Position numbers and translations under genes: made by a program. Below the pieces are notes generated by a model that saw only the letters and a list, made by a program, of their open reading frames with translations, made no database searches and was not told the DNA's origin. A DNA stretch of 64,000 bases, from contig NZ_QASA01000001.1 in the NCBI RefSeq assembly GCF_003340495.1, positions 1,674,001-1,738,000 of the forward strand, given 5' to 3'. The DNA comes from Adhaeribacter pallidiroseus (lineage in GTDB: Bacteria > Bacteroidota > Bacteroidia > Cytophagales > Hymenobacteraceae). Shown piece by piece: positions 3,143-51,376 of this stretch (positions within the stretch are counted from its first letter, which is position 1; the number at the start of each line of letters is the position of its first letter).

Positions 3143-3466
3143 GTAAGATTGTTTTATGCTGCAATATTAGTAAAATAATTGCTGTCTCTTTTACCTGATT
3201 CGGCATAAAAGAGGACGAGTAAAATTTAAAATTAACCAGCAATTACTTAGGTTTTCCGGAAAAATACGGCTCTCGCATTATCCGGATGGTGAAAATATAC
3301 GCAGGAGAACGGTTCGTAGCCTGATGTTTTTGTGAATTTAAAGAAAAGTTTACTTGATCCTCAGTACAGAACTTATTTCCTTGCAAACAATATTACCAGG
3401 TAAATAATTAATTTCTAGTTGTTTTAGGTAGCGCAACGAACAACGAATCACAAGCAACTGTTTATG
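3143..3466. other. Spacer between psd and cdsA
   Basis: No gene seen. It holds one diverged copy of the 104-nt dispersed element at about 3361-3464, which ends three bases from the cdsA stop codon. Confidence 0.6.
3361..3464 (+). repeat. 104-nt dispersed element, copy 1 (diverged)
   Basis: The last 34 bases divide into heptads GCGCAAC GAACAAC GAATCAC AAGCAAC plus TGTTTA. This is the same plan as the better conserved copies at 23399, 38110 and 51271. The left end, AGTACAGAAC, resembles their AGTAACAGGAC with one base missing. The middle is not conserved. Confidence 0.5.
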
Positions 3467-4303
3467 CTAAAACAATTTTAAATATGCCACAATAAACGGA
3501 ACTACTAACAATAAACTATCGAACCGGTCCAGGATGCCGCCGTGCCCCGGAATTAAAGTGCCCGAATCTTTTACCTGTAAACTACGCTTCAGCAACGACT
3601 CAATCAAATCGCCGAGTACACCAAACACCGCCACAATCAGGGCAATGCCCAACCAATACGGCAAAGCTAAATCCTGGAAGTAAAGCGACAACAGATAACC
3701 TACCGCCAGGGAAAATACCGCCCCGCCCAGCCAGCCTTCCCAGGTTTTACCCGGCGAAATCCGGGGGAAAAGCTTGTGGCGGCCAAAAGTTTTCCCGGCA
3801 AAGTAAGCGCCGGAGTCGGAGGTCCAGAGGAGCAGCATGGTGCCCATGATTACCTGCCAACTGTAATGGCCCTTTAAAAAGCCTAAAATCGGCAGCATGC
3901 TAAATGAGCCACCCACGTACAACATGCCCAATAAGGTAAGCGCAATATTCACGAAGGGTTGTTCTTTTTTCCGGAACAATTCCGAAATAAAAACAAAGAA
4001 TAAAATGGGGGGTAAGGCGTATAAAGCACTTAAGGGTACCAGATGCAATTGCAGCAGAAAAGTTAAAACAAATAAAGCGCAACCCAGTACCATACCAGCG
4101 TTGTAGTTCGGCGAAAAGCCGCGGAAAGAAAGCAATTGGTAAAATTCACGGATACCCAATAAGGTTAAAGCCAAAAACAAAGCGGCGAAGGTCCACTGGC
4201 TCCAATAAATAGCCCCAATAAAAAGTGCTCCACCGGCAATACCTACTAAAACACGTTGCTGAAAATTATTTAACGACTTTTTATCAGAAGGTTCTTGGGG
4301 CAT
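3467..4303 (-). CDS. cdsA: Phosphatidate cytidylyltransferase
   Basis: Integral inner-membrane enzyme that makes CDP-diacylglycerol from phosphatidate and CTP. It has seven or eight hydrophobic segments over 278 residues. The signature lies near the C-terminus: SPGKTWEG, then GVLGDLIESLLKRSLQVKDSG and PGHGGILDRFDS, which carries the family's conserved acidic metal and CTP ligands. Length is normal. A seven-unit heptad array sits directly upstream of the ATG. The gene lies between a CPBP protease upstream and psd downstream on the same strand, a common Bacteroidota order. Confidence 0.96.
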   Translation of the reverse strand: MPQEPSDKKSLNNFQQRVLVGIAGGALFIGAIYWSQWTFAALFLALTLLGIREFYQLLSFRGFSPNYNAGMVLGCALFVLTFLLQLHLVPLSALYALPPILFFVFISELFRKKEQPFVNIALTLLGMLYVGGSFSMLPILGFLKGHYSWQVIMGTMLLLWTSDSGAYFAGKTFGRHKLFPRISPGKTWEGWLGGAVFSLAVGYLLSLYFQDLALPYWLGIALIVAVFGVLGDLIESLLKRSLQVKDSGTLIPGHGGILDRFDSLLLVVPFIVAYLKLF

Positions 4304-4315
4304 GTTCTGGATTTA

Positions 4316-4364
4316 GTTACAGGTTGCAAGTTGCAAGTTGGAGGTTATCAGTTACAAGTTAAAA
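4316..4364 (-). repeat. Seven-unit heptad array upstream of cdsA
   Basis: On the plus strand it reads GTTACAG GTTGCAA GTTGCAA GTTGGAG GTTATCA GTTACAA GTTAAAA, seven consecutive 7-mers beginning GTT. On the minus strand, the sense strand of cdsA, these are NNNNAAC units. This is the same unit that closes the 104-nt dispersed elements. It ends 13 bases before the cdsA start. Confidence 0.8.
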
Positions 4365-4557
4365 ACAAGATGGTATATACCGAATGCCGCTCTAATTTTA
4401 AATTATTTACTAAAACTTACGCGTCATTAACTAATTATGAATAGTGATGCAGTAGGAATTTTTTTGGCGGTGCCCCTATTAAGAACCTACCAGAATAGCT
4501 TTTATTTTAGAATTTCCGCAATCCGAACGAATGTAAAACTTAAATTCGGCGTAAATT

Positions 4558-5502
4558 TTAAACGGAAGTAAGTCGGGAGGAAGCAGACGGTACGTTTTTA
4601 AAGCCGCGATGCAGATAAAACAGTGTGAACACACTAAGTATTACGGAAAATAAAATACTGGCCCAAGGCATTACGGCCGTAGAATCAATATCGTAGTTAA
4701 TGATTTTCTTTTGTTGCAAGTATAGCGTGAGTACGATAAAGCCGTTGTTCATGAAATGTCCCGCAATGGGTATCCCTATATTGCCGGACCAGTGGTACAA
4801 ATAGCCCAATATAGCGCCCAGTAACAGGCGCGGAATAAAGCCGTAAAATTGCATGTGGATGGCCCCAAATATAAAAGCCGTCAGCCAAATCGCTACGTGT
4901 GCATTGCGAAGAACCAGAATCATATTTTTTTGCAGTAAGCCTCTAAAAACAAATTCTTCGCCAATGGCCGGAATTAAACCAAATACCAGCATGCCAAACC
5001 AAAACTGCCCGGCATTATCAAAAATGGTTAATTGCTGGGTCAGTACTTTTAATGTTTCTTCTTTGGTTTTAGCCCAGGTTTCAAAAGCTTTTAAAGCTTC
5101 CGGAAATTGAAGATTGGCGTTCCAGTTAATAATCCAGGAGTTTGCCGGCATAATAAATAAAATGAGCAAGGCACTCAATAAGCCTAAACCCAGGGGTACA
5201 TATTTTTGCGGAGTTAAATAGCTATTAGCTGCCTGGCCACTGCTATATAAGTAAAACAACGGCGCTAAGGTAAAGGCAAATAAATGCGTCACTCCCTGAA
5301 ATAAATTAATAGCTACCTTGCCGTTGGGCTTCAGGCCGGGGTTTTGCATGAGCTGCAAGGTTTCCGTTAAGCTAACTTTAAAGAGCAGGTTAATTAAAGC
5401 TACCGCCACAAAGTTGCCGATGAAAAAGCCAGCAGCCATAAATAACAACACAACCAAGATAGCCGTAATCGGGTGGAGGTCTTTCGAAATAAAACCTTTC
5501 AT
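4558..5502 (-). CDS. CPBP family intramembrane metalloprotease
   Basis: Multi-pass membrane protein of 314 residues of the CAAX protease and bacteriocin-processing family. Motif 1 is E182-E183 with R187 (EEFVFRG), motif 2 is F212-GAI-H216 and motif 3 is H249 with N253 in HFMNN, giving the complete set of catalytic and metal residues. About seven hydrophobic helices surround them. The open frame continues upstream to 5724, but that part overlaps the divergent dusB and has no hydrophobic or family character. ATG at 5502 gives a membrane N-terminus. It lies upstream of cdsA on the same strand. Its substrate is unknown. Confidence 0.88.
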   Translation of the reverse strand: MKGFISKDLHPITAILVVLLFMAAGFFIGNFVAVALINLLFKVSLTETLQLMQNPGLKPNGKVAINLFQGVTHLFAFTLAPLFYLYSSGQAANSYLTPQKYVPLGLGLLSALLILFIMPANSWIINWNANLQFPEALKAFETWAKTKEETLKVLTQQLTIFDNAGQFWFGMLVFGLIPAIGEEFVFRGLLQKNMILVLRNAHVAIWLTAFIFGAIHMQFYGFIPRLLLGAILGYLYHWSGNIGIPIAGHFMNNGFIVLTLYLQQKKIINYDIDSTAVMPWASILFSVILSVFTLFYLHRGFKNVPSASSRLTSV

Positions 5503-5560
5503 AGCAGAAATTAAGTTTAGAAGTGGTAAATTTACGCGAATTTTTAAATAATCTGATTCT

Positions 5561-6553
5561 TTGATCAAGATAGGAAACATTACCCTGCCGGATTTTCCGT
5601 TATTGCTCGCTCCCATGGAAGACGTGAGTGATCCGCCGTTCCGGGCGGTTTGCAAAGCCAACGGGGCCGATTTGATGTATACCGAATTTATATCGTCGGA
5701 AGGTTTAATCCGGGCAGCGGCCAAGAGCCGCCAAAAGCTGGACGTTTTTGATTACGAACGTCCGATTGGTATTCAAATATTCGGTAGCGACATTGCGTCT
5801 ATGCGCGAATCGGCGGTAATTTCGGCGGCGGCTGGTCCGGACTTAATCGACATTAATTACGGTTGTCCGGTTAAAAATGTAGCTTGTCGGGGTGCTGGGG
5901 CGGCTTTGTTGCGCGATATACCCAAAATGGTGCAAATGACCGAAGCCATTGTAAAAGCCACCTCTTTGCCGGTAACCGTAAAAACCCGCCTGGGCTGGGA
6001 CGAATCAACCAAAAACGTAACCGAAGTAGCCGAACGTTTACAAGATATCGGCATTCAGGCTTTATCTATTCACGGCCGCACCCGCGTGCAGATGTACAAA
6101 GGCGAAGCCGATTGGCGTTTAATTGCCGAAGTAAAAAATAACTCCCGCATTCAAATACCCATTTTTGGCAACGGCGACATCGACACGCCGCAAAAAGCCC
6201 TGGAATACAAAAACCGTTTTGGCGTGGACGGCGTCATGATTGGCCGGGCCGCGATCGGGTATCCCTGGATATTCCGGGAAATTAAACATTATGTAAAAAC
6301 CGGCGAAATGCTGGCTCCGCCCACCTTAGAAGAACGCATTGCGAACTGCAAACTGCACCTGACGCGCTCGCTGGAGTGGAAAGGCGAGCGGCAAGGTATT
6401 TTTGAAATGCGCCGCCATTACGCTAATTATTTTAAAGGTTTGCCCAACTTTAAACCGTACCGCATGCGCTTGGTGCAAACCGAAGCACCAGACGAAGTAT
6501 ACCAGATTCTGGATGAAGTAGCCGCATCGGAATCGCTGATTTTAGCGGATTAA
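5561..6553 (+). CDS. dusB: tRNA-dihydrouridine synthase B, TTG start
   Basis: FMN enzyme reducing uridine to dihydrouridine in tRNA. The TIM-barrel domain has LAPMEDVSD (16-24), the catalytic C102 in NYGCPVK, KTRLGWD, SIHGRTRVQMYKG, FGNGDI and GRAAIGYPWIF, followed by a helical tRNA-binding domain. The family N-terminus runs KIGNI-x-L-x-DFPLLLAPMED. That match begins at a TTG codon at 5561. The first in-frame ATG would fall inside the APMED motif, so TTG must be the start. Length 330 is normal. It is divergent from the CPBP gene, 58 bases apart. Confidence 0.96.
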   Translation: MIKIGNITLPDFPLLLAPMEDVSDPPFRAVCKANGADLMYTEFISSEGLIRAAAKSRQKLDVFDYERPIGIQIFGSDIASMRESAVISAAAGPDLIDINYGCPVKNVACRGAGAALLRDIPKMVQMTEAIVKATSLPVTVKTRLGWDESTKNVTEVAERLQDIGIQALSIHGRTRVQMYKGEADWRLIAEVKNNSRIQIPIFGNGDIDTPQKALEYKNRFGVDGVMIGRAAIGYPWIFREIKHYVKTGEMLAPPTLEERIANCKLHLTRSLEWKGERQGIFEMRRHYANYFKGLPNFKPYRMRLVQTEAPDEVYQILDEVAASESLILAD

Positions 6554-23338: not shown

Positions 23339-23398
23339 CTAATAGCTTGTTAATTGAAGCAAACTTAAAATTTAAAAAAACAGTGTTAATTTATAAGT

Positions 23399-23502
23399 AA
23401 GTAACAGGACAAAATTAAGTTGATTTAAACCTGAGTTTAAGTAATTGATTATTAATTTATTAACGATCGAACAACGAACAACTAAAAACGACCAACTACT
23501 TA
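23399..23502 (+). repeat. 104-nt dispersed element, copy 2
   Basis: Matches 51271-51374 over all 104 bases without gaps, about 11 mismatches (about 89% identity). The right end reads GAACAAC GAACAAC TAAAAAC GACCAAC TACTTA. It sits in the convergent gap between the AraC and TonB-domain genes. Confidence 0.85.
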
Positions 23503-23542
23503 AACTTACGAGGAAAACAGCTATTTCTCTGATTTAATGGTT

Positions 23543-30111: not shown

Positions 30112-30423
30112 TTATTCTAACCAAAATACCTCCCGGAGCGGTACGGATACCGGCGAATTATCCGGGTTCGTATCCATAATATCGGCCATGTAAGCCCACC
30201 ACTTTTGAACAATAAGGTTAGTTCCTAAATCCTGCGACGATTGCCCGGCTTGTTTTTGCACGGCAAACAGGGTTAGCGTTTCTTCGTCCAGAAAGATGGA
30301 GTAATCCGAAACGCCGGCAGCCTTTAACAACTGTACCAACTCCGGCCAAATAACCTGGTGCCGCCGCTGGTATTCCGCCACAAACCCCGGCTTTAATTTC
30401 ATCTTAAAAGCAAACCGTTGCAT
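30112..30423 (-). CDS. rhaM: L-rhamnose mutarotase
   Basis: Interconverts alpha and beta L-rhamnose in the cytoplasm, feeding rhamnose isomerase. The protein has 103 residues, like E. coli RhaM (104). The active-site residues fall at the same positions as in E. coli: Y18, H22, Y41 and W76 (AEYQRRHQVIWPEL, YSIFLD, KWWAYMADIM). The C-terminal PLREVFWLE is also typical. It is the first gene of a two-gene unit with the GH106 enzyme. Its ATG overlaps the end of a heptad element (TATTTATG), so that element is its entire immediate leader. Confidence 0.95.
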   Translation of the reverse strand: MQRFAFKMKLKPGFVAEYQRRHQVIWPELVQLLKAAGVSDYSIFLDEETLTLFAVQKQAGQSSQDLGTNLIVQKWWAYMADIMDTNPDNSPVSVPLREVFWLE

Positions 30424-30527
30424 AAATAGTTGTTGGTAGTTAATGGTTTGTTGTGAATCAAATACAAGTTTAGTTAGCTAAGTTATTACTGTAAATTTTA
30501 ATTTTATAGAAACGCGTTAAAGTACTT
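30423..30527 (-). repeat. 104-nt dispersed element, copy 3 (diverged), in the rhaM leader
   Basis: On the minus strand the last 34 bases read TCACAAC AAACCAT TAACTAC CAACAAC TATTTA, heptad-phased as in the other copies. The left end begins AAGTA, 105 bases away. The middle is not conserved. The final TATTTA runs into the rhaM ATG. Confidence 0.45.
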
Positions 30528-37816: not shown

Positions 37817-38109
37817 ATTTTCAGGATAAACTGGACTGGATTCGGTTTAGAGAATATTGCCAAGCCGGAATAAAAGTGAGGCAGCAGCTGCGCTGAAATC
37901 GCCCGAGTGGGTGGCTTTGTCCGGAACCCGATATTTTGCTAAATAAATTAAATATGGTTTACGGTTGGTTGTTGGTTATTTGCTTACCTAAAGCCACGTT
38001 GCCTATTGTATTAACGATGGTGCGTTTAGGACTTTAAAAAAGAAACTATTATTCCGATGTCAGATCAATAAGTGGCAGTCTTCTCTTCAAAAACCGGTTA
38101 TCTGTTGGT

Positions 38110-38213
38110 AAGTATCGGGACAAAAATAAACGTAAGGATATTTCAAGGTAATGTTTTAGTTAGCAATAGTTTACAGGTCGAACAACGAACAACTAATAAC
38201 GACCAACTACTTA
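38110..38213 (+). repeat. 104-nt dispersed element, copy 4
   Basis: Exactly 104 bases, like copies at 23399 and 51271. The left end is AAGTATCGGGACAAAA (versus AAGTAACAGGACAAAA) and the right end GAACAAC GAACAAC TAATAAC GACCAAC TACTTA. The middle 45 bases are largely different. Confidence 0.8.
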
Positions 38214-38461
38214 TTACCATTAAGTTTTATAGGAAGTAGCAAGGGCTCAATTGTTTATTTATATTTATAAAAATAGTACGTTTTTGCACCTACGCAGATC
38301 AGGTAAATTCCTTTTATTGACGTTGGTTGATCGTGTTTTTTTAAAAATCCAGAGGATAAAAGGTTAACTGTTTCTTGTGCTCTCTTCCTGATTCGAATTT
38401 TAAAAATGGAGGATCCTCATTTTCCTTAATTTAAAAAAACACCCCTAAAGGTATAAAGTAA

Positions 38462-45755: not shown

Positions 45756-45859
45756 TAAATGCTTCAACAAGTTATGGTAATTTATGATTTATGCTGAAGC
45801 AATAATTTTGAACATCTTATTTATAGAACAACAAATAGCTCATTACGAACAACTATTTA
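45756..45859 (+). repeat. 104-nt dispersed element, copy 5 (right end clear, left end weak)
   Basis: Right end GAACAAC AAATAGC TCATTAC GAACAAC TATTTA (45826-45859), heptad-phased. The left end at the expected distance shares only GTAA and AAGTT with the other copies. It ends 22 bases before the DUF1501 start. Confidence 0.4.
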
Positions 45860-45881
45860 GAGTGCTTTAAAATATAATTGT

Positions 45882-51224: not shown

Positions 51225-51270
51225 AAAAGATGATTTTATGAGAAATTTAAAAATTAAGCTGTTTTGAATT

Positions 51271-51374
51271 AAGTAACAGGACAAAATTAAGTTGATAAAA
51301 TCCTGAGTTTAAGCAATTGATGATTAAAGGTATAACGATCGAATAACGAACAACTAAAAACGACCAACTACTTA
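51271..51374 (+). repeat. 104-nt dispersed element, copy 6
   Basis: About 89% identical to 23399-23502 over the full 104 bases, without gaps. Right end GAATAAC GAACAAC TAAAAAC GACCAAC TACTTA. It lies upstream of the lipoprotein start and ends three bases from the stop of the pseudouridine synthase gene. Confidence 0.85.
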
Positions 51375-51376
51375 TT

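Follow-up and report, generated by a model that had tools for sequence, protein, structure and literature searches.

The window analysed here, a 64,000-nucleotide stretch (C1:1674001-1738000) of the 6.43 Mb genome of Adhaeribacter pallidiroseus, contains a cdsA-like gene preceded by a short array of heptads, which lies in the spacer between this gene and a Rce1-like CAAX protease gene (Table 1). The gap between the cdsA start codon and the array is 9 nt. Read on the + strand, the seven units are TTAGTTA, CAGGTTG, CAAGTTG, CAAGTTG, GAGGTTA, TCAGTTA and CAAGTTA; on the sense strand of cdsA they read TAACTTG, TAACTGA, TAACCTC, CAACTTG, CAACTTG, CAACCTG and TAACTAA, with the unit TAACTGA present once. 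The seven 7-mers that an earlier note had placed upstream of cdsA, at 4316-4364, were thus recovered with slightly shifted borders (4313-4361), while its description of each unit as ending in AAC proved loose, the fixed core of the unit being CA-R-GTT-R. An Rfam search around cdsA matched nothing, and no matching array was detected at the other edge of the spacer. Three congeners (G003, G004 and G006) lack the array in their orthologous spacers; in an empty-site comparison, the congener counterparts did not align with the cdsA spacer.

Table 1. Genes, arrays and repeats located in the window (positions are those of the window).
Feature	Positions	Strand	Remarks
104-nt element heptad tail	3426..3465	+	AAC strand; family D4
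cdsA-like gene (CTP_transf_1)	3467..4303	-	leader contains the array; Pfam match, E 8e-63
Spacer cdsA / CAAX protease gene	4304..4557	.	contains the cdsA array
CARGTTR heptad array, seven units	4313..4361	+	GTT strand directed away from cdsA
Rce1-like CAAX protease gene	4558..5724	-	upstream neighbour of cdsA; start codon uncertain
104-nt element heptad tail	23464..23503	+	
104-nt element heptad tail	30423..30454	-	inverted copy; inverted pair I17
104-nt element heptad tail	38175..38214	+	
104-nt element heptad tail, diverged copy	45821..45860	+	
104-nt element heptad tail	51336..51375	+	
Dispersed 104-113 nt element	23390-23502, 38101-38213, 51262-51374		~80 further genome places

The earlier note had united the cdsA array with the heptad phase that closes the 104-nt elements. 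Heptad-phased AAC tails were indeed found at all six places in the window, but their unity with the cdsA array was not confirmed. The tail occurs in 84 near-identical copies in the genome (at most 3 mismatches in 35), and the copies have a conserved element sequence in common, as is typical of dispersed mobile repeats. Among 12 sampled copies the tail was directed outward in 7, at a median distance of 129 nt from the gene faced by its AAC side, and on these grounds the element was rejected as part of the array system; it is best regarded as a dispersed repeat in its own right. As the geometry of the arrays (see below) is missing from it, it also provides a control, showing that this geometry is not common to all intergenic repeats of the genome.

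The cdsA array is one of a genome-wide class. The pattern CAAGTTNCAAGTTNCAAGTT (up to 2 mismatches) gave 140 matches in the own genome versus 0 for the reversed pattern, and three CARGTTR units (1 mismatch) gave 191 matches in the 6.4 Mb genome versus 0, which confirmed the previously suspected extension of the heptads beyond cdsA. The genome was analysed as a sample of 60 stretches of 20 kb. An unbiased part of 904 kb comprised 40 stretches, the window and the stretches on either side of it; most of the remaining stretches were chosen for holding arrays, which biases the presence of arrays, but should not bias their orientation or distance. Genes were identified with our own hexamer-based caller, which is exact for the stop codons of the genes it calls and less so for their start codons. 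Autocorrelation at lag 7 in 148 kb of spacers (at least 18/28 matches) revealed 49 segments, against a mean of 7.2 and a maximum of 12 in 20 dinucleotide shuffles. The lack of such an excess over shuffled spacers had been named beforehand as the result that would speak against the heptads; in the sampled spacers the excess is clear. The same spacers contained 34 segments at lag 8 (6.5 in shuffles) and showed a weaker excess at lag 9 (21 versus 6.2), AT-rich DNA making up part of the excess, chiefly at lags 8 and 9. In coding DNA, 13 lag-7 segments were found in 734 kb. The words among the lag segments include CARGTTR, GTTGTTN, TTAGAYN and GGACYAT heptads, GTTNNAAR octads and nonads such as GGATTACAC. 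With head-to-tail 7-nt units that are dispersed and mainly intergenic, the arrays can be classified among the bacterial intergenic heptad repeats.

Analysis of the units revealed a simple grammar. Arrays contain 3 to 10 units, and the internal units have the form CA[A/G]GTT[A/G], the four variants being similarly frequent; the CA-GTT backbone positions are conserved at 0.88 or above (mostly >0.96) and the two R positions are free. The longest G-run, GG, is present in 58% of the internal units, and GG units tend not to adjoin. In own and congener arrays alike, 65% of adjacent unit pairs differ at a given R site, and octads likewise have more unlike than alike neighbours (99 versus 53). This pattern was found by exploration and was repeated in separate data; the CARGTTR arrays of other phyla did not show it. 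The unlike neighbours argue against freshly slipped repeats, and the simple recent tandem duplication suggested earlier was not supported, since fresh slippage should make neighbours alike; they would fit arrays surviving through mismatching neighbours. An all-or-none purge of identical neighbours was rejected, since alternation at one R site is independent of that at the other (neighbours alike at both sites, 46 versus 44.3 expected), so that only a site-additive purge would fit. Two other candidates were rejected: a 14-mer parent unit, as sameness at lag 2 is close to that of a first-order chain, and a likeness of the unit to the tRNA anticodon loop, which octads and other words do not fit.

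It is the geometry of the arrays, not their period, that is their striking property. In 1.264 Mb we detected 68 CARGTTR arrays of at least three units, and 0 in the reversed sequence. The GTT strand runs away from the nearest gene end in 59 of the 67 arrays located outside genes, and these outward arrays are divided between 5' ends (31) and 3' ends (28). The median distance from array to start or stop codon is 4 nt, and 48 of 65 arrays are both outward and within 10 nt, compared with 6.9 of 65 expected for random placement and orientation. The first GTT directly follows the stop codon (TAGTT or TARGTT) in 9/25 cases, versus 51/986. Among the eight exceptions, several adjoin another array, rRNA genes or doubtful gene calls; one exception to the anchoring consists of identical arrays situated just before the 23S gene in apparent rRNA operon spacers (C1:440193, 1832456 and 4556890). 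Octads and other non-palindromic words gave outward:inward ratios of 7:0, 12:1 and 6:1, which are small numbers for patterns picked after looking, the count for GTTGTTN taking in some 104-nt tails. The array feature is real and tightly organised. The genes behind the arrays are of mixed kinds, including the trp operon and purH/purN. Several CARGTTR arrays were also observed in the spacers of a putative phage tail or contractile injection system cluster (C1:1590001-1610000).

The pairing of the two edges of a spacer was analysed independently of any word, by a masked local alignment in which the left and right edges were both read outward and compared with each other; a whole-edge k-mer test was weak, with AT-rich noise dominant. 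A score of 28 or higher was reached by 5.7% of the 647 spacers from the own genome, compared with 0.15% when edges were paired at random and 0.3% when they were aligned in direct orientation; the corresponding values in congeners were 9.0%, 0.7% and 0.4%. These percentages take in some ordinary short hairpins. Array-type pairs were identified in 23/581 tandem, 7/136 convergent and 2/164 divergent spacers, the shortage in the last group being not significant (p 0.10). Paired arms are usually at least 100 nt apart, and numerous arrays lack a counterpart at the opposite edge of the spacer. Changes between the arms showed no bias of G.U over A.C in tandem spacers (19 G.U-compatible versus 24 A.C changes, a small sample).

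Four anchor regions were compared in up to six congeners of a genus set of seven. Among the relatives searched, CARGTTR arrays were found in congeners only, in 4 of the 7, one of these with a single match. In orthologous spacers the word varies by species, yet the two edges of such a spacer agree in word; thus, spacer C19 carries CARGTTR in the genome of the window, octads in G004 and AGTTATG in G003 and G006. Array spacers are approximately twice as long as their counterparts in the array-poor G001, G002 and G005 (247 versus 127 nt, 12 spacers), while non-array spacers are not lengthened (116 versus 110), and they are less conserved (medians of 0.58 versus 0.71 and 0.60 versus 0.77). Arrays shared between species often differ at R positions (34/78, 20/79) and rarely in the GTT core (6/78, 2/79, 6/79); the counts come from ungapped matches, in which gain or loss of units can inflate the R values. 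Loop inversions between congeners, as a trace of recombination between the arms, were sought and none was convincing. In G001, itself without CARGTTR arrays, the orthologue of the spacer at C1:1496543-1496704 has GTTAACA/TAACTGT-type heptads at both edges, which are close to the TAACTGA word of MacGregor. Two array spacers (genome positions 4293090-4293345 and 4294843-4295099) contain inner GTCATTCAGGAGGAACC-type and GGAGGGG...GGTGG-type elements, common to congeners.

A scan of GTDB species genomes with the exact degenerate CARGTTR 24-mer revealed at least 117 stretches in many phyla, versus ~0.2 expected, with arrays recurring in Bacteroidota, Chloroflexi, cyanobacteria and others. Cross-phylum arrays located up to 15 nt from an ORF end were outward in 29 of 29 cases, as judged from simple ORF calls, and other Cytophagales carry other heptad words (small samples). 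The CARGTTR word therefore looks recurrent rather than inherited, with the geometry accompanying it. Two Chloroflexi contigs (CAADGT010000101.1 and CAADGT010000154.1) contain CARGTTR satellites of 24 to 34 units, as compared with the short arrays of the genus of the window.

Of the explanations considered, a neutral one acting at the level of DNA is the best supported. The cdsA array may belong to a large set of heptad or octad arrays that are lineage-specific and short-lived and that grow in weakly constrained spacers, a reading to which we give slightly less than an even chance. Units would arise by local slippage or template-switch synthesis, and a strand folding back within the spacer would allow one edge to be copied onto the other by quasi-palindrome template switching. 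The outer boundary of the arrays may be set by the coding sequence; arrays with identical neighbouring units would be lost by slippage, so that arrays of unlike neighbours remain, and a dedicated regulatory function would not be needed. Template switching is an established route to the homogenisation of arms (PMC8604942, PMC7202029), and RNA:DNA hybrids have been reported to promote it in yeast (PMC3820800). Such growth and foldback is favoured by the inverted edge matches, by species-specific words matched within a spacer, and by the pairs in divergent spacers, where a single transcript need not span both arms, as well as by the lack of G.U bias, the longer and faster-evolving spacers, the mixed genes and the absence of the cdsA array in three congeners. 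Several observations count against it. Loss of constraint would not predict so sharp an outward polarity, nor a median distance as short as 4 nt, and for the many arrays that lack a partner the polarity calls for more than foldback copying. Unlike neighbours are not a direct product of slippage, and the loop inversions that recombination between the arms should leave were not found. The conserved GTT core with changing R sites looks like selection or continued homogenisation; together with the outward polarity, it keeps a functional reading open.

The likeliest of the functional readings is one in which a protein acting at gene boundaries would bind the arrays, either as RNA of the AAC strand (a protein of S1, Csp or KH type) or as DNA, and would recognise the CA-GTT backbone; a binding protein has been proposed for TAACTGA (MacGregor 2015, PMC4679880). 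The strong backbone beside two free R positions, the persistence of the GTT core between species and the exact anchoring at codon boundaries would all be in keeping with it. It is nevertheless unlikely, as arrays occur about as often at 3' as at 5' ends, i.e. on opposite transcribed strands, the orthologous spacers of congeners hold different words, the cdsA array is not conserved, and array spacers evolve faster than other spacers. The repeat-counting RNA or protein invoked previously was not supported, in view of the variable number of units, the similar frequency of arrays at 5' and 3' ends, the lack of an RNA-pairing signature and the absence of the cdsA array in three congeners. Selected RNA or DNA hairpins spanning the spacer (a terminator, an insulator or a protection of mRNA ends) would account for inverted pairs far above chance and for arms kept complementary across species by concerted word change. 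We consider them improbable, given that the arms are usually far apart and that pairs occur in divergent spacers too; the lack of wobble asymmetry led us to reject an RNA stem, and the presence of arrays in the spacers of the trp operon argues against strong termination.

An origin of the arrays from a mobile element that inserts between genes, as its remnants or termini, is very improbable. They resemble REP, MITE and foldback elements in their intergenic location, inverted arms and many copies, and the greater length of array spacers than in array-poor congeners and the patchy distribution within the genus would agree with such an origin. Unlike these elements, however, the paired arrays have a word specific for each spacer, widely separated arms and ends lying within a few nt of codon boundaries, where random insertion would not place them. 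No common element sequence was seen in the inspected array spacers, where sharing was limited to the array word and to some inner repeats unrelated to it, and the 104-nt repeat, a true dispersed element, does not have the array geometry. G-quadruplex-type elements, like the heptads of Xanthomonas and Nostoc, match the arrays in geometry, inverted pairs and number per genome (PMC4692102), but four G-tracts are not available in units with GG at most, in which the GG units are seldom neighbours, and we regard this explanation as scarcely credible.

A further reading reaches beyond the genus. An undescribed DNA process present in several phyla might place arrays of heptads or octads, in inverted orientation, at the two ends of a spacer where it borders on translated sequence, in a word that varies with the lineage and is common to both edges. 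The quadruplex heptads of Xanthomonas and the TAACTGA heptads of Beggiatoaceae would then be dialects of this process, and neither quadruplexes nor a dedicated binding protein its cause. We put this forward as a rather doubtful generalisation. The two published accounts of heptads rest on abilities of the word, namely quadruplex folding and binding of a translational regulator; since a different word has the same geometry here, and CARGTTR arrays with outward orientation recur across phyla, a common cause should lie in the gene boundaries or in DNA synthesis, not in the word. The open question of why seven bases, why codon boundaries and why outward is thereby made testable.

The STRR heptads of heterocystous cyanobacteria are likewise tandem heptanucleotides in intergenic DNA, with a different word, and the comparison with cyanobacterial heptads drawn in the earlier note is a fair one. 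Its remark that it knew of no described equivalent in this group does not apply, as TAACTGA heptads are known from Beggiatoaceae, cyanobacteria and five Bacteroidetes, where they are mixed with related heptamers and located mostly upstream of start codons (MacGregor 2015, PMC4679880). The arrays described here share with them the period of 7 and an AAC strand facing the start codon within a few nt; they differ in that 5' and 3' ends are used alike and in the main word, which is CA[A/G]GTT[A/G] and not a direct repetition of TAACTGA. The GGGAATC / GGGGA(C/T)T (GGGNATC) heptads of Xanthomonas and Nostoc, which were tied to G-quadruplexes, amount to ~185 repeats per genome and are mostly intergenic (Rehm et al. 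2015, PMC4692102). Close to ORFs, those upstream occupy the non-coding strand and those downstream the coding strand, in some cases with an overlap of the stop codon; the heptads form inverted pairs, vary between close relatives and are fewer in divergent spacers (PMC4692102). Neither of these studies shows a function (PMC4692102, PMC4679880). The likeness of the arrays to the Rehm heptads extends to the period, the similar number per genome, the mainly intergenic location, the close inverted pairs, the variation between close relatives, the occasional overlap with a stop codon and the outward strand rule at ORF ends. The differences are the lack of G-runs in CARGTTR, the coexistence of other words and octads in the genome of the window, the congener-specific word shared by the two edges and the tendency of adjacent CARGTTR units to differ. 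Searches of open-licence papers turned up no account of CARGTTR arrays, nor of a word shared by opposite spacer edges. The CARGTTR arrays are thus a variant of the known heptad repeats, in which the two edges of a spacer are often matched in word and the word differs between congeners.
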